A DNA stretch of 44,848 nt from Polyangiaceae bacterium (GTDB lineage Bacteria > Myxococcota_A > Polyangia > Polyangiales > Polyangiaceae). Below, in pieces: positions 7,123 to 19,148 of the stretch. Where the stretch lies: NCBI GenBank assembly GCA_020849655.1, contig JADLFU010000026.1, forward strand, positions 1 to 44,848. The letters are read 5' to 3'. Within the stretch, counting starts at the first letter, position 1, and every line of letters starts with the position of its first letter. Made by a program: the position numbers and the translations under genes. The notes beneath the pieces are model-generated. The model saw only the letters and a list, made by a program, of their open reading frames with translations, made no database searches and was not told the origin of the DNA.

Positions 7123-9054
7123 TCAGCCGCGGGACGCGAGCAGGATGCAGGCCTCCGCCGCCGCCCGCGCGCCGAGGTAGCGGTAGACGGGCAGGGCGTC
7201 GATGCCGGTCGCGACCGCGCCGGCGGCCTTGTCGGCCACGTTCATCGCGGTGGGGAGGTACGCGGAGACGGCGTCGCCGGCGCGCTTCGCGTACGGCAGC
7301 ACCGACTGCACGATCCCGGACACCGGCGCGATGAGCGACGAGAGGATGCCCTGCGCCTCGCCCGCGGCCGCCGGCCCGGCGACGGCGCCGAGCTTGGTGG
7401 TGGCGGCGGCGCCGTGCCGCGCGATGAGGCCGCCGAGCAGGTCGGACCCGTACGAGACGGCGTTGTCGGCGAACGGCAAGGCGACGTCGACGGCGCCGTA
7501 GAAGATGGTCATCGCCTGCCCGGCGGGGGTCGTGTGGTGCGCGCGCACCCGATCGATGGGGCCTCCCGGGTAGAGCTTCGCGATGAAGTACGCCATCGCG
7601 AGCAGCTTGATCACCGCGTCGACGCCCTGCTGGGTGTCGGTCTCGAGCGCGTCGCTGCCCTTGCCGGTGATGAGCCCCCAGACGGCCTTCGCGCCCGAGA
7701 ACGCCGCGATCCCGGTGTCGGCCTTGTCGGCGACGCCGACCGCAGACAGCGCCGAGGACACGTCGGCGCCCGACGCCAGCATCGACGCGCGCCGGTGCGT
7801 CTCGCCCGTGGCCGCGGGGAAGAGCTGCGGCAGCGCCTCCTCGAGCGTACGGTACGAGAGCGGCGTCGGCGCGAAGGGCACGACGCGCAAGACCGCGTTC
7901 GCCACCATCACGGAGTAGTCGTCGGGCGCGAACTCGGCGAGCGCCGTGTTCACCGCGTGGAACGTCGGGAGCGTCGGCATCGGCGGCCCCGCCGGCGCGA
8001 CGGGCGCGGGCGCCGTCGACCCCTGCGAGCCCGAGTACGCGAGCGCCGCGACGCCGCCCGCGACCGCCGCCACCCCGACCCCCGCCGCGATGGCGCCGAC
8101 CCCGAGCCCCGCGCGCGGCGCTCCCTGCGACGTCGGCGCGCCCGTGTAGGACGGCGCGGCGTAGGACGGGCTCGCGTACGAGGGCGCCCCGCCGTAAGGG
8201 GCCTGCGCCTGCGCACCGGTCGCGGGCGCGACGGCCCCGCCCGCGAGCGCGGGGACGGACGCGAGCTCGGGCGGGGTGAGCACCTCGGGCTGCATCGAGC
8301 AGCCCCGCGCGCGCAGCCGCTCGGCCGTGCGCTCCACCGTCGCCTGCCACGGCGCGCCGCCCGCCTCGGCGAGCACCTCGAGCAGCGACAGCGTGAAGGC
8401 GCCCCGCACCTCGCCGCTCGCCTGGATCTCGGCCGCGACCTCGCCCTCCCGGCACGCGAGCACGCCGATGATCGGCGCGTCGTCGCCCTTGCGCACGAGC
8501 AGCCTCGGGCGGAGCGACAGCCCGCGCGCGAGCTCGGCCTGCACCATCAGCGGCGGCGGCGCGAGGAACCTCCCGCGCGTCGGCATCGGCGCGCCGAACG
8601 CGGGCGGCCCGCTCGGCGCCGGCAGCTCGCACGGCACCCCGACGTCGGCGATGACGACGGTCGCCGCGCCCCGCGGCACGCGCCGCAGCCTGGTCACCAG
8701 CTCGTCGTCGCGCAGCGCCGTCAGCTGAAAGTGGTGATCGTGCGACGCGAACACCTGGTCGAGGCCGTCGCGATCGTCGCCGCGCTCGTTCGGCAGGTAC
8801 GAGCCGTACGTCGCCAGGTAGAGGAGCGCGGTGTCGCCCGGGGCCGCGGTCATGCCGAGCCAGTCGACCGCGCGCAGGATGGCGTCCTTCGTCGCGCGCG
8901 CGCCCGTCAGCAGCTTCACGTCCGCCTCGGCGAAGCCGAAGCGCTGCACGAGCGCCGCGGCCATCGCCCTCGCGTCGGCGACGCACCCCGCGAGCGGCGG
9001 GACGGCGCGGTCGGAGAACTCGTCGATGCCCACCAGCACGGCGCGCTTGGTCAT
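7123..9054 (-). CDS. Caspase-fold (C14-like) protein lacking catalytic His and Cys, with C-terminal domain
   Basis: A 643-residue protein. Residues 1-150 follow the orthocaspase pattern: ALLVGID-type first strand (RAVLVGID), the GDDRDGLDQ segment after the histidine loop, and a hydrophobic strand ending in Asp137. The usual SGHG motif reads ATYG (Tyr83 in place of His), and the usual DxCHSG reads D137-V-G139-V-P-C142, so the nucleophile position is Gly, with a Cys three residues on. A Gln/Ala/Tyr-rich linker with PSYA repeats (about 270-310) leads to a Gly/Ala-rich hydrophobic helix (about 315-340), probably a membrane segment, and then about 290 residues of unrecognised, partly hydrophobic sequence. 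It is likely a pseudo-protease used as a binding or signalling module. The start is supported by TACCTT 6 nt upstream. Confidence 0.75.
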   Translation of the reverse strand: MTKRAVLVGIDEFSDRAVPPLAGCVADARAMAAALVQRFGFAEADVKLLTGARATKDAILRAVDWLGMTAAPGDTALLYLATYGSYLPNERGDDRDGLDQVFASHDHHFQLTALRDDELVTRLRRVPRGAATVVIADVGVPCELPAPSGPPAFGAPMPTRGRFLAPPPLMVQAELARGLSLRPRLLVRKGDDAPIIGVLACREGEVAAEIQASGEVRGAFTLSLLEVLAEAGGAPWQATVERTAERLRARGCSMQPEVLTPPELASVPALAGGAVAPATGAQAQAPYGGAPSYASPSYAAPSYTGAPTSQGAPRAGLGVGAIAAGVGVAAVAGGVAALAYSGSQGSTAPAPVAPAGPPMPTLPTFHAVNTALAEFAPDDYSVMVANAVLRVVPFAPTPLSYRTLEEALPQLFPAATGETHRRASMLASGADVSSALSAVGVADKADTGIAAFSGAKAVWGLITGKGSDALETDTQQGVDAVIKLLAMAYFIAKLYPGGPIDRVRAHHTTPAGQAMTIFYGAVDVALPFADNAVSYGSDLLGGLIARHGAAATTKLGAVAGPAAAGEAQGILSSLIAPVSGIVQSVLPYAKRAGDAVSAYLPTAMNVADKAAGAVATGIDALPVYRYLGARAAAEACILLASRG

Positions 9055-9094: not shown

Positions 9095-10948
9095 TCAGGG
9101 CAGGACCCACCCGAGCGTCTGCTCGACCGTCTGCCCCTCGCACCCGGCGTCGGGCGAGACGAAGTGGTCGCCCGAGCCCGGCACGTAGCAGCGGTGGAGC
9201 GCGACGCGCCCGCCGCCGGCCGCGTCCCACGCGTACCCGAGCGGCCCGAGCGGCGGCAGGCCCTCGCAGCTCGCGCTCGGTGACACGAGCGAGTGCGCGC
9301 CGGCGCGGCACTCGAAGAGGAGGTGCGTCCCCGGCTGCGGATCGCGCGAGAGGCGCCACGACTGCTCCTTCGTGAACCCGGTCGGCGGCTCCCTCGTCGA
9401 GGCCCAGTGCCCACGCGCGGCCGAGTAGCTGCGCGTCAGCCGCACGTACGGCAAGTCCTCGAACCCGCACGACACCTTGCCGACGTCGGGGCGGTTCGCG
9501 AGCGCCCAGACCGCCCACGCCGCCTTCGCCTTGCCGTTCGTGTCGCGCAGGCCGACGCCGAGCCCCGACGCGGTCTCGACGGGGTGGTCCTTCATGCGGT
9601 GGTAGATGTAGCTCTCGACGCCTGGCGTCCCGAGCGCGTTGCGGAGGCTCTTGCAGACGCCGTCCGCCTGCGCGGCCTCGCTCGAGCCAGGCCCGAGCGA
9701 GTTGACGCCGCTCTCCGTGAGCTGGATCTCCCACGTCCAGGGCGCGGTCGGGAAGGTCCTCCGCAGCCAGCCCGCGAGCACGCCGAGGCTGCCGTAGGTG
9801 ACCTTCGGATCGTCGTCCGGCGAGAACGCGGGCTTCAGCAGATCGGGCGGGTAGGGGTGCATCGCGACCCGCCATTTCCGCGCCCCGACGCGCGCCGCGA
9901 GCCCCTCGAGCACCGTCTGCCCGCCGAGCAGCGGGTGCGCCGCGGCGGGCGTATCGAACTGCTTGCCGAAGTGGTGATCGAGCGAGACGAGCACCTTCGC
10001 GGTCGCCTGCTCGTCGATCACGCGATCGTAGGCTGCCGAGAAGCTCGCGGCGTAGGCGTCGAGCCACGCGTCGACGTCGCACGCCTTGCCCTGGCCGCAC
10101 CCGATGTCGAACCAGTCGTTCGCGTTGACCTCGTTGTGGATGACGAAATCCGCGACGCGGCCGTGCCCGGATTTCCCGTCGTAGCGGCGCGCGAGCATCC
10201 CCGCGAACCGCCCGTAGTCGGCGGCGTCGTCAGGCGAGCAGAAGATCTCGAACCCCGCCGCGACCGGCGAGCACGGGTGGCCGGCGCGCGCCCAGCCGGG
10301 CACGCCGTACACGATCGCGGTGACGGCGACGCCGCGGTCGGAGTACGCCTTGATGGCCTGGTCGACGCCCGCGTCGACGACGAAGCACCGCCCGTCGTAC
10401 TCCTGCTCCTTCGCGCCGCACGGCGCTGACTTCTTCGTGCTCTCCCAGACCGCCCACACGAGGTTCATCGCGACCGCGCCGACGCCGTTGCCGGCGACCT
10501 CGTCGAGATCGGGCCAGAAGTCGGGCTGGAGGCCCTTCAGCTTCATCGCGGGCCGGGTCGGGTAGGGGAGCGGACCGCTGCCCGCGCTGCCCGCGCTCGC
10601 CTTGCCCGCCGCGCCTGCGGTCGCCTTGCCCGCGCTGCCTGCCGTGCCCGCGCTCCCTGCCTTCCCCGCGCTGCCCGCCTTCCCCGCGCTGCCCGCCTTG
10701 CCTGCGTCGCCCGCCGCGCCGGCGCTACCCGCCTTGCTTGCGCCGCCGGCCGTGCCCGCGCTGCCCGCCGTGCCCGCGCTCCCCGCCTCGCCAGCGTCGC
10801 CCGCGCTGCCTGCCTGTCCGCTCGCCGGCTGGCCGCCGGCCGCGTGCGCGCCGCCGGCCGACGTGGAGGGCGCGCTGGTCGCGTCGTCGGAGCCGCCGCC
10901 GCAGGCCGCGGCGAGCATGAGGAGCAGCGTGGTCGCGCGGAGCCGCAT
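9095..10948 (-). CDS. Secreted glycoside-hydrolase-like lipoprotein with DUF5648-like C-terminus
   Basis: A 617-residue lipoprotein (signal ending MLAAACGGG). Residues about 25-125 are an Ala-Gly-Ser-Lys low-complexity spacer. The next 330 residues resemble a TIM-barrel glycoside hydrolase: an acid/base candidate in IHNEVNAND and a nucleophile candidate in IQLTESGVNS, plus GVPGWA and HPYPPD loops near the expected active site. The last 130 residues carry two units of the type LFECRAG...HSLVSPSASCEG and LHRCYVPGSGDHFVSPDAGCEG, resembling the DUF5648 repeat seen on secreted proteins. The exact GH family is not certain (DUF5722-like is my best guess). The ATG at 10948 is supported by the lipoprotein signal and TACGCG 8 nt upstream. 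Confidence 0.72.
   Translation of the reverse strand: MRLRATTLLLMLAAACGGGSDDATSAPSTSAGGAHAAGGQPASGQAGSAGDAGEAGSAGTAGSAGTAGGASKAGSAGAAGDAGKAGSAGKAGSAGKAGSAGTAGSAGKATAGAAGKASAGSAGSGPLPYPTRPAMKLKGLQPDFWPDLDEVAGNGVGAVAMNLVWAVWESTKKSAPCGAKEQEYDGRCFVVDAGVDQAIKAYSDRGVAVTAIVYGVPGWARAGHPCSPVAAGFEIFCSPDDAADYGRFAGMLARRYDGKSGHGRVADFVIHNEVNANDWFDIGCGQGKACDVDAWLDAYAASFSAAYDRVIDEQATAKVLVSLDHHFGKQFDTPAAAHPLLGGQTVLEGLAARVGARKWRVAMHPYPPDLLKPAFSPDDDPKVTYGSLGVLAGWLRRTFPTAPWTWEIQLTESGVNSLGPGSSEAAQADGVCKSLRNALGTPGVESYIYHRMKDHPVETASGLGVGLRDTNGKAKAAWAVWALANRPDVGKVSCGFEDLPYVRLTRSYSAARGHWASTREPPTGFTKEQSWRLSRDPQPGTHLLFECRAGAHSLVSPSASCEGLPPLGPLGYAWDAAGGGRVALHRCYVPGSGDHFVSPDAGCEGQTVEQTLGWVLP
10571..10870 (-). repeat. Low-complexity Ala-Gly-Ser-Lys coding repeat
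   Basis: Imperfect repeats of nine-base units coding for AGSAGKAGS-type sequence inside the lipoprotein at 9095-10948. The units differ at synonymous and non-synonymous positions, as expected for a flexible linker evolving by repeat slippage. Confidence 0.8.
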
Positions 10949-10956
10949 GATCTCGA

Positions 10957-10962
10957 CGCGTA
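10957..10962 (-). promoter_or_regulatory. Putative -10 element (GH-like lipoprotein)
   Basis: TACGCG preceded by GTGG on the minus strand, 8 nt upstream of the ATG at 10948. Confidence 0.38.
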
Positions 10963-10983
10963 CCACGCAGCTCGCCGCGGCCG

Positions 10984-11859
10984 CTAGCGCGCGCCGACCA
11001 CGCACTCTCCCTCGCCGCGGTAGTGGCCGACGCTCCGGGAGAGGGACGTGATGAAGTCGCCGAGGTGCGTCACCGCGAACGGCGACGGATTGTACGTCGG
11101 CACCGACAGCGTCGCCGCGCGCAGCTCCTCGAGCGTCACGTCGCCGTCGCCGTCCGCGTCGGCCGCCGCGATGGCGTCGAACCGGAGGCGCGTGGCCACG
11201 GCCGGATCGGGCGAGGCCTGCAGGCGGTCGTAGAAGAAATGGTCCCCGTGCGTCGTCAGCTCGCTCGTGTCCGTCTGCCCCGGGCGCACGACGATGCCGA
11301 GCTGCTCGCGGCCGTCCTCCACGGCCTTGCACTCCGTGAGCGCGGTGTTCGTCGCAAAGCCCCACGAGAAGCGCTTCGTCTCGCCGCCCTTCGTCGCCGC
11401 GCCCGTCACCCAGATCGACCAGCCACGCGCCGCCATCTCGTCGCGGTCGGCGTCGGTCGCCGCGACGGGGCGCGTCGTCGGCGTGACGGGCACGAGGGCG
11501 TACGACACCTGCGGGTACGCCTTCGCCTCGAGGCCCGTGATCCGAAACAGCGACTTTCTGCCGGGGCGTACGTTGTCGACGAGCGCCGTCCCTGCTTGCG
11601 CCCCCGCCACGGCGCCGCTCGCGTCTCTCACCGTGATCTCGCCGAAGTTCACGAGGAACTTCTCGAACTTCACCGTCCAGCCGTCGACGAAGCCGGCCTC
11701 GCCGGTGGAGTCGGGGCCGATGCCCTGCTCGATGTACGCCTCGCCCCACGTCGTGAACTCGGCGTCACCGACCCCGCCGGAGGGATCATCGCCTCCGCAG
11801 GCGGCGACGAGGGGGATGAGGACTGACATCAGGGAGCGTGACGCGGCGTTGGGGGACAT
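10984..11859 (-). CDS. EF-hand-containing lipoprotein
   Basis: A 291-residue lipoprotein with signal and lipobox ending LVAAC (Cys21 or so) followed by Gly/Asp residues. The body has no family I recognise, but residues about 221-235 contain a canonical EF-hand calcium loop, DADGDGDVTLEE, in a helix-loop-helix setting, so calcium binding outside the cytoplasm is likely. Homologous-looking proteins in related bacteria are annotated only as hypothetical. A TACGGA element lies 6 nt before the ATG; it also contains GGAG, so either leaderless or Shine-Dalgarno initiation could apply. It is divergent from nothing and lies 35 nt upstream of the GH-like lipoprotein on the same strand, though that gene seems to have its own promoter. 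Confidence 0.75.
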   Translation of the reverse strand: MSPNAASRSLMSVLIPLVAACGGDDPSGGVGDAEFTTWGEAYIEQGIGPDSTGEAGFVDGWTVKFEKFLVNFGEITVRDASGAVAGAQAGTALVDNVRPGRKSLFRITGLEAKAYPQVSYALVPVTPTTRPVAATDADRDEMAARGWSIWVTGAATKGGETKRFSWGFATNTALTECKAVEDGREQLGIVVRPGQTDTSELTTHGDHFFYDRLQASPDPAVATRLRFDAIAAADADGDGDVTLEELRAATLSVPTYNPSPFAVTHLGDFITSLSRSVGHYRGEGECVVGAR

Positions 11860-15130: not shown

Positions 15131-15910
15131 GGCGGCCATCCGGTAGCCCGAGAGCTGCGCGACGCCGACCGCGAACGAGACGCCCTGCGGGGAGTCCGGG
15201 CCGAGCGTCACCGGCGCCTCGGCGGTGCCGCCGGAGAGCGCGCCGAAGTCGACGAACAAGAACCACGCGCTCGGCGAGATGGTCAGCGTGGCCGCGAGAT
15301 CTCCCGAGACCTCGCGCTCGGTGAAGGGGCAGCCCTCGACGCGCCCGCCCGCGAGGCTCAGCTCGAGCTGGGAGCGGGGCGCGACGAGCCGGAAGGTGAG
15401 GGTCGCGTCGCCCTTCTTCGCCGTGCCCTCCGCGACGACGGCGGCGCCTCCAAGCGACGTGGAGGACGCCGAGTACGTGACGCGCGCGGACCGGAACGTG
15501 CCGGTCACGCCGTCTCCGTCGCCGAGCGCCGTCGGCGCGCCGAGCAGCTCGAACGTGCCGGGCGCTACCACCTCGCCGAGCGCGTTGCCCGCCTGGTAGT
15601 GGCCCGGGTGCGCGTGCGCCGTGCCGAGGAGCCAGCTCGACCACGTCCGTCGCGGGCGCGGCGCCCACGCGACCGCCGGAGGGCCGTCGAAGATCTGCAC
15701 CGCGTCGAGCGCGACCGCCGCGCGCGTCAGCGTCACCGAGTGACCCGTGCCGAGGAAGAAGGGCGCGCGCGCGTCGGCGGCGCCGGCCACGTCGACGTGC
15801 ACGCGGACGCGCTTGCCCGTCGTGGAGTCGGCCGCGGTCGCGTCGCTGCCGCAGCCAGCGTGCAGCGCGCCGAGCGAGGGGAGGCAGAGGAGGATCAGGA
15901 GTCGTTTCAT
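15122..15910 (-). CDS. Hypothetical lipoprotein with HAHPGHY motif, coupled to a TonB receptor
   Basis: A 262-residue lipoprotein (signal ending LGALHAGC). The body is predicted to be beta-rich and has no family name I can give. A His cluster, GTAHAHPGHYQAGNALGE (about residues 110-127), could bind a metal. The ATG at 15910 overlaps the stop of the TonB-dependent receptor upstream (ATGA), so the two are translationally coupled and probably work on the same substrate at the outer membrane. The start at MKRLL was preferred to a longer reading because of the lipoprotein signal and the overlap. A metal-related function is inference from the His motif only. Confidence 0.75.
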   Translation of the reverse strand: MKRLLILLCLPSLGALHAGCGSDATAADSTTGKRVRVHVDVAGAADARAPFFLGTGHSVTLTRAAVALDAVQIFDGPPAVAWAPRPRRTWSSWLLGTAHAHPGHYQAGNALGEVVAPGTFELLGAPTALGDGDGVTGTFRSARVTYSASSTSLGGAAVVAEGTAKKGDATLTFRLVAPRSQLELSLAGGRVEGCPFTEREVSGDLAATLTISPSAWFLFVDFGALSGGTAEAPVTLGPDSPQGVSFAVGVAQLSGYRMAATE

Positions 15911-18300
15911 CGGGAGGCCTTGGGTAACAGGTGGAGCGTGACGCCGGCGAGCCACGCGCGCGGCGCGCCGACGGTGACGTGCCGCTGCGGCACGAGCGAC
16001 GGCGTCGCCCCGCGGGTGAACGCGGACGCGAACGTGTACTCGCCGTCGTAGTAGCGGGCGTCGAGCGCGTTGTAGACGTCGCAGGTGAGCTCGATGGCGC
16101 CGAGCCTGAGCGCCGCCGTCGCGTCGCCCGTCAGCACGTCGTGGGCCAGCTCGCCGAAGGGCAGCGGCCGTCGATGCAGCAGCGACGCTCCGTAGCCGAG
16201 CCGCGCGCGCAGCGGCTGGCCGAGCACGCGCCCCACCACCCCGCGGACCGCGAGATCCGCGCGGGCCACGAGCTGCGGCGCGTACGGCAAGAGATCGCCG
16301 CGCCGGTGCCCGCCGTCATCGGCGCGGAACACCGCGCGGGTGTACGTCGCGCTCGTCGACGTCGTGATCCACGGCGCGGGCTCCGCCACGACGTCCGCGG
16401 CGAGGCCGGTGCGGGAGGTGCCCGGCGTGCGCTCGGCGCGGGTCGTCGCCGGATCGAACGCGAGATCGTCCGAGAGCTCCGCGCGGAACGCGGCCGCCGA
16501 GGCCTGGAGCGCGCCGTCGCGGTAGCGCGCGCCGAGCTCGTAGGACCGCACGGTGGTGAAGGGAGCGAGCTCGCCGTTCGCGAGCGAGCGAGCCTGGGGC
16601 GACCGAAACCCCTCGCCGTAGCTCGCGACGACCGACGCGCCCCGCGCGACCGAGGCCGTGAGCGAGGCCTTCCTCCCGACGTGCGAGCCTGCGGCGCTGC
16701 GCGCCCCGCCTCCCCCTGCCTCGTCGCGCACCGAGTAGGCGAGGCCGTCCTGCCGCACGCCCGCGCGCGCGACGAGCCAGCGCGCGGGCGAGAGCGAGAG
16801 ATCGACGTAGCCCGCCGCGTTGGTCGCGTGGATCGTCGCTCGCACCGGCACGTCCACGATCTGCCGCCGGTCGACGGCGACGTTGGCCTGCGACTGGTGG
16901 ATGCTGTCGCTCCGCGCGTAGACGCCGACCTCGACGGCGTCTCGCGACGAGAGCCAGTCGAGCGGCCGCGCGTAGCGCGCGACGCCGCCGAGCGTCACCG
17001 CGTCGTTCTCTTGCTCGGTGGCCCGGCCGTCGACCGGATCCTCGAGGTACCCGGTGAAGTCCTGCCGCAGCCGCATCGAGCGGGAGCCCACGAACGGCGC
17101 GACGCTCCACCGCTCACCGTCGTCCGCGCTGGCGAGCTCGACGACCAGCTGCGTGCGCGCCGACGCGCCGCCCTGGTCCTCGTCGTAGCTGCCGAAGCGA
17201 TCGATCTTCCCACCCTCGACGTCGCTGAGGCGCAGCACGCCGGCCGAGTCGAACCTCGACGCGTACGTGGAGACGAGCACCCGGAGCCTCGCGGCGTCGC
17301 CGATCGCCCACGCGCCCTGCGCCAGCGCCGAGGCGCGCGTCGCGGCGCGCGCGGGGCCGAACCCGGTCGTCGACGCGGCCTCGAACGCCGCGAACGTGGA
17401 GGGCTCCGCGGAGACCGGGCGGTACGCGACGAACGCGCGGCGCGCGCCGAACGATCCCGCCTGCGACCTCACTGTCACGCCGGGCTCGTCGAGCCCGAGC
17501 GAGAGGCGCAGCGTGCCGGCGACCGCGAAATCACCCTGCCGCGGATCGTACGTGCCGGGCGTCGAGCGCAGCTGTCGCACCAGCTCCGCGGGGACGAAGT
17601 GGAGATCGGCGTAGCCCTGGCCGTGCACGTTGGAGACGTCGTTCACCGGCGCTCCCCCGACCCACACCTCGACGTCCTGCCCGTGCTCGGCGTCGAAGCC
17701 GCGGAAGAAGATCTGGAACGCCTTGCCGTCGCCGCCGTGCTGCACGATCGCGACGCCCGGCGCGGTCTTCAAGAGATCGGCCGCCGTGCGGTGCGGCGCG
17801 GCGCCGAGCACAGGGCGCCCGAGCGTCGACGCGGACGCGGAGCGGACAGCCTCGGGCCGCTCACCGAGCACCCGGACGTGGGCGTGCGAGTGCTCCGCGT
17901 CTCCGTTCGCGAGCTGCGTGGCGCCAGGGCGCGGCGCCACGGGCGCGGCCGGGGGCGAAGGCGCGCGCCCGAGGAACCGGATGACCGCGCGGACCTTCGC
18001 CGCGACGGGGCGCCCCTCGGCTCGTGCGGGCGTGAACGCCCAGCGGCGCGCGGCGTCGATCGCGGCGGCGTCGAAGGGCTCGCCCAGGCTCGCGTCGACG
18101 ATCACCTCGTCGACGTGACCATCGGCGCCGATCACCAGCACGACCGGCACGACCACGTCGTGGGCCGCGGCGGCGCCGTCGGGCCAGCGCGCGACGGGCT
18201 GCGGCTCCGCGGGGCGTGGCGGCGTGAGGTCGTGCGCGCTCGCCGCGGGCGCGATCGAGAGCGCCGCGATCCCGAGCGCGGCCGCGCGGCGCAGAGACAC
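15907..18300 (-). CDS. TonB-dependent receptor with N-terminal TonB_C domain
   Basis: A 797-residue outer-membrane protein. After a signal peptide (about residues 1-23, ending PAASA) comes a domain of about 70 residues typical of the TonB C-terminus: VVLVIGADGHVDEVIVDASL, then AAIDAARRWAFTPARAEG and AKVRAVIRF. A plug domain follows (residues about 140-250; VQHGGDGKAFQIFFRGFDAEHG), then a 22-strand-type barrel ending in WLAGVTLHLLPKASR, although the terminal residue is not aromatic. A His-containing stretch (EHSHAHV) links the TonB_C and plug parts. The fusion suggests energy coupling in cis or self-interaction. The GTG at 18300 is supported by the signal peptide and TAGCCT 8 nt upstream. The substrate is unknown. 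Confidence 0.85.
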   Translation of the reverse strand: MSLRRAAALGIAALSIAPAASAHDLTPPRPAEPQPVARWPDGAAAAHDVVVPVVLVIGADGHVDEVIVDASLGEPFDAAAIDAARRWAFTPARAEGRPVAAKVRAVIRFLGRAPSPPAAPVAPRPGATQLANGDAEHSHAHVRVLGERPEAVRSASASTLGRPVLGAAPHRTAADLLKTAPGVAIVQHGGDGKAFQIFFRGFDAEHGQDVEVWVGGAPVNDVSNVHGQGYADLHFVPAELVRQLRSTPGTYDPRQGDFAVAGTLRLSLGLDEPGVTVRSQAGSFGARRAFVAYRPVSAEPSTFAAFEAASTTGFGPARAATRASALAQGAWAIGDAARLRVLVSTYASRFDSAGVLRLSDVEGGKIDRFGSYDEDQGGASARTQLVVELASADDGERWSVAPFVGSRSMRLRQDFTGYLEDPVDGRATEQENDAVTLGGVARYARPLDWLSSRDAVEVGVYARSDSIHQSQANVAVDRRQIVDVPVRATIHATNAAGYVDLSLSPARWLVARAGVRQDGLAYSVRDEAGGGGARSAAGSHVGRKASLTASVARGASVVASYGEGFRSPQARSLANGELAPFTTVRSYELGARYRDGALQASAAAFRAELSDDLAFDPATTRAERTPGTSRTGLAADVVAEPAPWITTSTSATYTRAVFRADDGGHRRGDLLPYAPQLVARADLAVRGVVGRVLGQPLRARLGYGASLLHRRPLPFGELAHDVLTGDATAALRLGAIELTCDVYNALDARYYDGEYTFASAFTRGATPSLVPQRHVTVGAPRAWLAGVTLHLLPKASR

Positions 18301-18308
18301 GGGCAGGG

Positions 18309-18314
18309 AGGCTA
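18309..18314 (-). promoter_or_regulatory. Putative -10 element (TonB receptor)
   Basis: TAGCCT on the minus strand, 8 nt before the GTG at 18300; it is the main argument for that start besides the signal peptide. The rest of the gap 18315-18521 shows no feature. Confidence 0.4.
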
Positions 18315-18521
18315 GCCTTGGTCGCCCGAGCGCCCGAGCGCCGCGCCGCCGTGTGACCTCGGCCGTCACACCCGCTCGTCGCACGTGTCGGACGATCGCG
18401 CGTGCGACGGCAGGAGCCCGCCCAGACGATCCGCTACCACTTCGTCGAGAGCGAGGGCGCGGCCCTCCGAGAGCGCAGCGCCGCGCCGGGGAGAGACTGC
18501 GCCAACAGCCGGGCCGGCCTC

Positions 18522-19148
18522 TCACGTCTCGACCAGAACGTACAACTGCTGCCCCGCTGTGGCCTGCCGGGCCAGGGCCACGAGGGGCTCGAGGACAGCC
18601 GACGCCTCCAGCGTCGACCACGCGTCGGAGACCTGGACGCCCGACACGGCGTGCGTGTGCTCGGGCGTGGACATCGCGGCGGCCCACTGCTTGGCCACCG
18701 TCTTCAGGTCGACCACGGCGAGCTTGGCAAGCAGTCCCGCCGGCAGTTGCTGAACCTCCGCACCCGACGAGGGAGGCCCGTAGATGGGTGACACGAACTC
18801 AGGGCGGACGCCGACGATCTCGCACAGCGGCCCCAGCTCCACCTCGGTCAGGCCCTTCGCCGCCCAGTGCACGCGGGAGCGCACGAAGGCCGGGATGCGA
18901 CCCCCGAGGTAGCCCTCGTAGCTCCCCTGAACCTCGACCGCCCCGTACTCTGGACCCGGCTCGTCTCCTTCGTCCCCTCCGTCGGGCCACTCGGGCTCGA
19001 CTGTCTCCACTACCGACACCTCGCCGGTGAACGGGTTGCGGAACTCGCGGCGGGAGGGCGACGCCAGCGGCGGCCGCCAGCCGGGGGACCCGCCGAGCAA
19101 CTCGTCGGTGCACAGGAAGAAGGTGGTGTAGATCGCCAACTGGTGCAC
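18522..19148 (-). CDS. Hypothetical protein of unknown family
   Basis: About 208 residues, not recognised. It starts IYTTFFLCTDELLGGSPGW, has an acidic middle (EWPDGGDEGDEPG), and ends in a helical C-terminal half; there is no signal peptide or membrane segment, so it is cytoplasmic. The start is uncertain: GTG at 19148 and TTG at 19139 both fit just before the conserved-looking YTTFFLCTDE segment, while the longer reading to 19232 adds Arg/Ser-rich sequence that looks non-coding. It stands alone between the TonB unit and the divergent mannosidase gene. Size and style recall immunity-type or effector-binding proteins, but nothing in the sequence proves this. Confidence 0.6.
   Translation of the reverse strand: MHQLAIYTTFFLCTDELLGGSPGWRPPLASPSRREFRNPFTGEVSVVETVEPEWPDGGDEGDEPGPEYGAVEVQGSYEGYLGGRIPAFVRSRVHWAAKGLTEVELGPLCEIVGVRPEFVSPIYGPPSSGAEVQQLPAGLLAKLAVVDLKTVAKQWAAAMSTPEHTHAVSGVQVSDAWSTLEASAVLEPLVALARQATAGQQLYVLVET

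Follow-up and report, generated by a model that had tools for sequence, protein, structure and literature searches.

The window, that is, the whole 44,848-nucleotide stretch of Polyangiaceae DNA that was analysed, carries on its minus strand an open reading frame that starts with an ATG at 9054, ends with a stop codon at 7125-7123 and encodes a protein beginning MTKRAVLVGI, in which a caspase-fold domain, a low-complexity linker, a hydrophobic segment and a long C-terminal module follow one another (Table 1). The same start methionine and full length are found in its orthologues: L045, from a same-genus metagenome-assembled genome (MAG), with 83% identity over the whole protein, and L037 and L033, from two genomes of a second genus of the same family, with 48-52% identity. 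The preliminary description of this protein, made from the DNA letters, is confirmed, except for Cys142 as a nucleophile and for the C-terminal membrane domain.

Table 1. Features of the gene and of its predicted protein, in window coordinates
Feature	Position	Strand	Basis
Whole gene, 643 aa plus stop	7123..9054	-	Open reading frame and translation; orthologues in three other genomes
Caspase-fold (Peptidase C14) domain, aa 1-275, p20 core plus p10-like C-terminal part (predicted)	8230..9054	-	Pfam, AF2, Foldseek, VIA
Cys24 and Asp27, S1-pocket positions kept	8974..8985	-	Alignment and published pocket residues
Tyr83, replaces catalytic His	8806..8808	-	Alignments A2 and A3
Asp137, S1-pocket Asp kept	8644..8646	-	Alignment
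Gly139, replaces catalytic Cys	8638..8640	-	Family alignments
Cys142, proposed shifted nucleophile, not conserved	8629..8631	-	Gly in L037 and L033
Low-complexity PSYA/Gly linker, aa 276-314, fast evolving	8113..8229	-	dN/dS 0.45, aa identity 0.68 (window vs L045)
Gly/Ala/Val-rich hydrophobic segment, aa 315-341, marginal transmembrane candidate	8032..8112	-	Kyte-Doolittle
All-helical module, aa 358-643, undescribed Myxococcota family (predicted)	7126..7983	-	AF2 model; 48/377 phylum genomes

No conserved operon partner accompanies the gene, its neighbours being common within the genus and not between genera. A DUF5722-type gene lies 41 bases upstream and was rejected as an operon partner because only the same-genus genome shares it; the convergent gene downstream is likewise common only to that genome. 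A defence island was also rejected, since a PADLOC scan of ten neighbouring open reading frames yielded no defence partner (one weak partial match, of a histidine kinase). The upstream DUF5722-type protein contains a long Gly-Ser-Ala repeat (GSAGKAGSAG; window 10600-11050) after a lipoprotein-like start and, further along (15907-18687), a single open frame appears to encode a TonB C-terminal domain fused ahead of a TonB-dependent receptor with its plug and barrel.

The caspase-fold framework claimed for the N-terminal part is borne out at both the sequence and the structural level. PF00656 matches the protein with an E-value of 3.1e-16 and a score of 60.2 bits, where the Pfam cut-off is 21.4, and the AF2 model of residues 1-275 (pLDDT 85.4, pTM 0.86) resembles metacaspase-9 in Foldseek (E 2.8e-18) and metacaspase-4 in VIA (6w8r; Z 28.2, rmsd 2.8 over 236 residues). 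The matches to metacaspases and to GSU0716 cover the whole length of the domain, and the alignment with metacaspases, which extends through residue 275, indicates a p10-like structure such as that of GSU0716 (3bij). The domain is therefore assigned, from sequence and model, to the Peptidase C14/caspase fold. Two narrower families do not take it in: NF047832 (EACC1-associated caspase) scores 35 bits against an NCBI cut-off of 140 and over residues 4-87 only, and the PADLOC model PDLC02987 (anti-phage defence caspase), at E 5.8e-11, is matched over only positions 5-77 of 453.

Both catalytic residues of this domain are replaced. In the family alignment Tyr83 stands opposite the histidine of SGHG and Gly139 opposite the cysteine of D-x-C-H-S-G; among 23 domains of the order (alignment A3), the His/Cys dyad is found in 19 and the Tyr/Gly pair in four, which are the window protein, L045, L037 and L033. 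Alignment with Arabidopsis metacaspase-4 again sets Tyr83 opposite the SGHG histidine and ends at 138, so that Gly139 adjoins the catalytic Cys139, a residue named by the titles of PDB entries (C139A). The replacements of His by Tyr83 and of Cys by Gly139 that had been proposed are thus found in agreement by family and structural alignment, the active-site geometry being judged by alignment throughout. Cys24, Asp27 and Asp137 are kept in all four Tyr/Gly proteins, in which the serine of SGHG is an alanine (Ala81). In metacaspases the counterparts of these three residues belong to the S1 pocket (PMC4357240, PMC6426788), so that the pocket keeps its acidic residues for basic substrates in what is best described, on the alignments, as a pseudo-orthocaspase.

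In the domain tree, for which the His/Cys orthocaspases of Myxococcota were sampled in trimmed form and which does not place the cyanobacterial Tyr-Gly members, the four Tyr/Gly proteins (the whole of the clade as sampled) form one group with 100/100 support, nested among His/Cys-intact relatives. The group spans two genera and its stem measures 1.05 changes per site; both catalytic residues were thus lost in its ancestor. It had been suggested that a profile search recovering homologues with the dyad restored would point to recent loss: such homologues do exist, one of them (L035) with the same C-terminal module, but the loss is not recent given the long stem and the two genera. A recent or random loss in a single strain was rejected on the same grounds and on the low dN/dS values given below. 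The closest intact relatives in the tree are myxococcal orthocaspases of family f6 (L047, L048, L125, L126, L129 and L131), which are 31-33% identical and share the HDHDW region and the C-terminal end with the Tyr/Gly clade, but differ from it by their intact dyad, the lack of the module and other C-terminal parts.

The loss of the dyad appears to be rare in the order. Across 90 regions, 77 of the 82 C14 domains have simple His and Cys motifs, a sample that leans towards intact domains because it was drawn from the best-scoring matches. Two of the five flagged domains are members of the Tyr/Gly clade, L170 and L215 turned out to be His/Cys on reading, and L180 retains SGHG with Asp-Ala-Ser in place of Asp-x-Cys, which makes it a single-residue pseudo-variant. 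Additionally, a 1205-residue protein (L051:5494-9108) contains three caspase-type repeats with degenerate dyads in two of them (YSGMSG, FAGNGS) and appears to show that caspase decay also arose independently elsewhere in the order. Most of the genomes are MAGs, 81-97% complete in key cases, so that absences are to be taken as soft.

The C-terminal module of about 285 residues is the newer part of the finding. Its AF2 model is all-helical (pLDDT 80.6, pTM 0.83). Sequence searches of Pfam, PHROGs and the PDB found nothing significant for it, and with Foldseek its model found no match below E 0.37 in the PDB or BFVD, although this lack of matches is no proof of a new fold. MxA/MxB stalks and alpha-pore toxins gave the best VIA scores (Z 6.2) and were not used as fold assignments because this value lies inside the noise quoted for helical bundles. 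The last 290 or so residues, described earlier as unrecognised, thus remain without a convincing match in Pfam, PHROGs or the PDB, and the earlier picture of a pseudo-caspase fused to an unrecognised C-terminal part holds in both halves. Within the order 7 of 183 genomes carry the module, and across the phylum 48 of the 377 that were sampled; it is often multicopy (up to five places per genome, often adjacent on one contig) and, judging from these searches, would be a family absent from the libraries consulted. A phage or plasmid origin was rejected, with no match in plasmids (tblastn) or viral contigs. Over 45 divergent members, Pro393, Gln476, Asp479, Lys483, Gly512, Pro527, Ala615, Asp619 and Glu634 (window numbering) are invariant, a pattern suggestive of a site for a ligand or for catalysis, or of a strict structural network.

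The partners of the module vary. It follows the dead caspase in the four proteins of the Tyr/Gly clade, an intact caspase in L035 (G057:C292) and an acidic TerB/DUF533-like domain in L034 and L040, whose scores of 17.5-18.4 bits lie below the Pfam cut-offs, hence "TerB-like" only. It stands alone in L036, L038, L039, L041-L044 and L105, as well as in a further gene (G000:C258) of the genome that the window comes from. In other families of the phylum the module is N-terminal, with coiled coils, proline-rich stretches, a beta-type domain or a hydrophobic tail behind it, and its genes adjoin housekeeping genes such as rbfA and truB. L035 has the same order of parts as the window protein, caspase domain then module (50% identical), but differs by its SSHG and DTCHSG motifs, by the lack of a Gly/Ala segment and by a module whose sister is the stand-alone L038. 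The loci of L035 and L038 are orthologous: the upstream MFS gene and the module are each about 77% identical in DNA, but G057 has the caspase domain and G019 shows no remnant of it. In the module tree the dead-caspase and TerB-like fusions group together (96/96) and L035 groups with L038 (100/100). The caspase may have been joined to the module twice, or once with later loss and replacement, and the trees favour neither reading; the module itself is a modular, partner-swapping unit.

At L096, L097, L098, L103 and neighbouring loci, two to five module paralogues are clustered in tandem or divergently, and some of them have tails that end in repeats of an I-K-x-T-R-S/N-x-(D/E) motif and in a hydrophobic anchor rich in Cys and Gly. 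In two genera, a conserved papain-like protein with LGFP repeats adjoins a stand-alone module (L041:3034-5427 and L042:10412-12805, with L041:5767-6969 and L042:9713-10408). The catalytic cysteine of its G-S-C-W-type motif appears to be an alanine (GGSAASA, LGTATAA) while the His and Asn motifs remain, which would make it a second dead cysteine protease linked to the module.

We consider it fairly probable that the dead Tyr-Gly orthocaspase-type domain, the linker, the Gly/Ala segment and the Myxococcota-wide module together form a regulator or scaffold without catalytic activity, which works by way of the module. The dyad is lost, selection keeps the domain intact and it is joined to the module, all of which argues for a partner or regulator that does not cut; the "scaffold or sensor" role of the preliminary description was a fair inference. 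The caspase-fold domain would not cleave but could still bind Arg/Lys-containing peptides or pair with other caspase-fold domains, so that the protein would serve as a regulatory or scaffold subunit. The module would be the constant working part, by ligand binding or by assembly with stand-alone paralogues, on which caspase, pseudo-caspase and TerB-like domains would act as interchangeable input or output domains. As a guess, the stand-alone G000:C258 might be the natural partner of the dead-caspase protein in its own genome. A broader and quite tentative view, possible but not favoured, is that the module serves in Myxococcota as a signalling or enzymatic domain of an undescribed kind, repeatedly wired to cysteine-protease-like domains, within a phylum-specific control system that uses pseudo-proteases as receptors; it is based on the invariant Gln, Asp, Lys, Gly, Asp and Glu positions of the module, and on the intact caspase, the dead caspase and the Cys-to-Ala papain-like neighbour of stand-alone modules.

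That the protein is instead a membrane-anchored sensor, with the Gly/Ala helix spanning the membrane and the C-terminal 290 residues forming a membrane domain, seems unlikely. The hydrophobic Gly/Ala segment is indeed there (residues ~315-341), reaching a Kyte-Doolittle value of 2.09 over 19 residues, and in other families several module paralogues have a hydrophobic C-terminal tail, rich in Cys and Gly, that resembles a membrane anchor. A similar segment is found in the pseudo-caspase and TerB-like fusions but is absent from the intact-caspase fusion L035 and from the stand-alone forms of the module. In the module itself hydropathy peaks at about 1.6 at most across members and at about 1.5 in the window protein, charged residues are invariant and the helical model is compact; hydropathy thus argues against a multi-pass membrane domain, with the Gly/Ala segment as the only, marginal, candidate, and the earlier "membrane domain" label is weakly supported. 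To judge from the tail-anchored relatives, moreover, the module would be cytoplasmic, the reverse of the placement expected from an N-in transmembrane Gly/Ala helix.

A decaying gene, in which the inactive caspase domain drifts and is carried along by a useful module, has little probability. Between the window protein and L045, dN/dS (Nei-Gojobori counts, without significance test) is 0.22 for residues 1-150 (the p20 core), 0.39 for 151-275, 0.45 for the linker and 0.09 for the module, so that the dead domain is less tightly constrained than the module; the module also exists alone, and at one orthologous locus the caspase domain is absent. Between L037 and L033 the corresponding values are 0.16, 0.16, 0.27 and 0.10. 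The low values indicate that the dead domain is constrained: dN/dS is well below 1 in both sister pairs, the frames are open at full length in two genera, and Tyr83, Gly139, Cys24, Asp27 and Asp137 are exactly retained across a deep split.

In c-FLIP and other metazoan pseudo-caspases, a dead caspase-fold domain is kept by selection. A comparable arrangement here, in which the dead caspase pairs through its module with an intact module-fused caspase and controls it, would fit G057, which encodes both the dead-caspase L033 and the intact-caspase L035 with the same module, but it is similarly improbable. Of the four genomes that carry the dead form, only G057 also carries the intact module-fused form, and the orthologous locus of the sister genome G019 lacks the caspase part, counts that are weakened by MAG incompleteness (81-84%). 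Neither G000 nor G001 has an intact caspase carrying the module, the other caspase of G000 (L002) being His/Cys-intact with a different architecture, so that pairing with such a partner is not general. The comparison with c-FLIP is one of working principle only: the window protein has neither death-fold domains nor a shown partner, and the inactivations have no common origin. Least of all is the protein likely to be a shifted protease with a displaced active site, as proposed for Cys142 with a nearby histidine or for another pair: Cys142, which the window protein and L045 have three positions beyond Gly139, was rejected as a nucleophile since it is glycine in the other two clade members, Cys24, His105/107/108 (the HDHH stretch) and Cys201 are not compensating changes because intact relatives have them at the same positions, and, with the last one, Cys252, outside the comparison, no replacement His/Cys pair emerges as a candidate.

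Dead caspases as such are a known kind. Pseudo-variants make up 8.6% of bacterial orthocaspases, about 90% of them alphaproteobacterial or cyanobacterial; tyrosine is the commonest replacement of the histidine, and the Tyr-Gly pair is on record and common in Synechocystis (PMC6426788, PMC7889975). In that organism, deletion of the dead caspase SyOC raised oxidative-stress tolerance (PMC7889975). The window protein resembles these pseudo-orthocaspases (Klemencic et al., 2019, PMC6426788; SyOC, PMC7889975) in its C14 fold, its Tyr-Gly pair and its retained pocket Asp residues, and some of them also have long C-termini lacking an identifiable domain (PMC6426788). Unlike them, its clade is myxococcal and nested in myxococcal His/Cys orthocaspases, and its C-terminal module is definable as a mobile family. 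Since Tyr-Gly pseudo-orthocaspases are already published, the dead caspase itself is a known type that is rare in the order and sits in an unusual lineage; the literature on myxococcal caspases and TerB yielded nothing relevant.

Pseudo-orthocaspases have mostly been reported from photosynthetic bacteria and linked to photosynthesis. A conserved Tyr-Gly clade in predatory-type, non-photosynthetic Myxococcota shows that dead caspases are also maintained outside a photosynthetic setting. It is joined to a conserved multicopy family that is undescribed in the libraries searched, and the natural forms of this module (with a dead caspase, with an intact caspase, TerB-like, stand-alone and tail-anchored) make its function directly testable.
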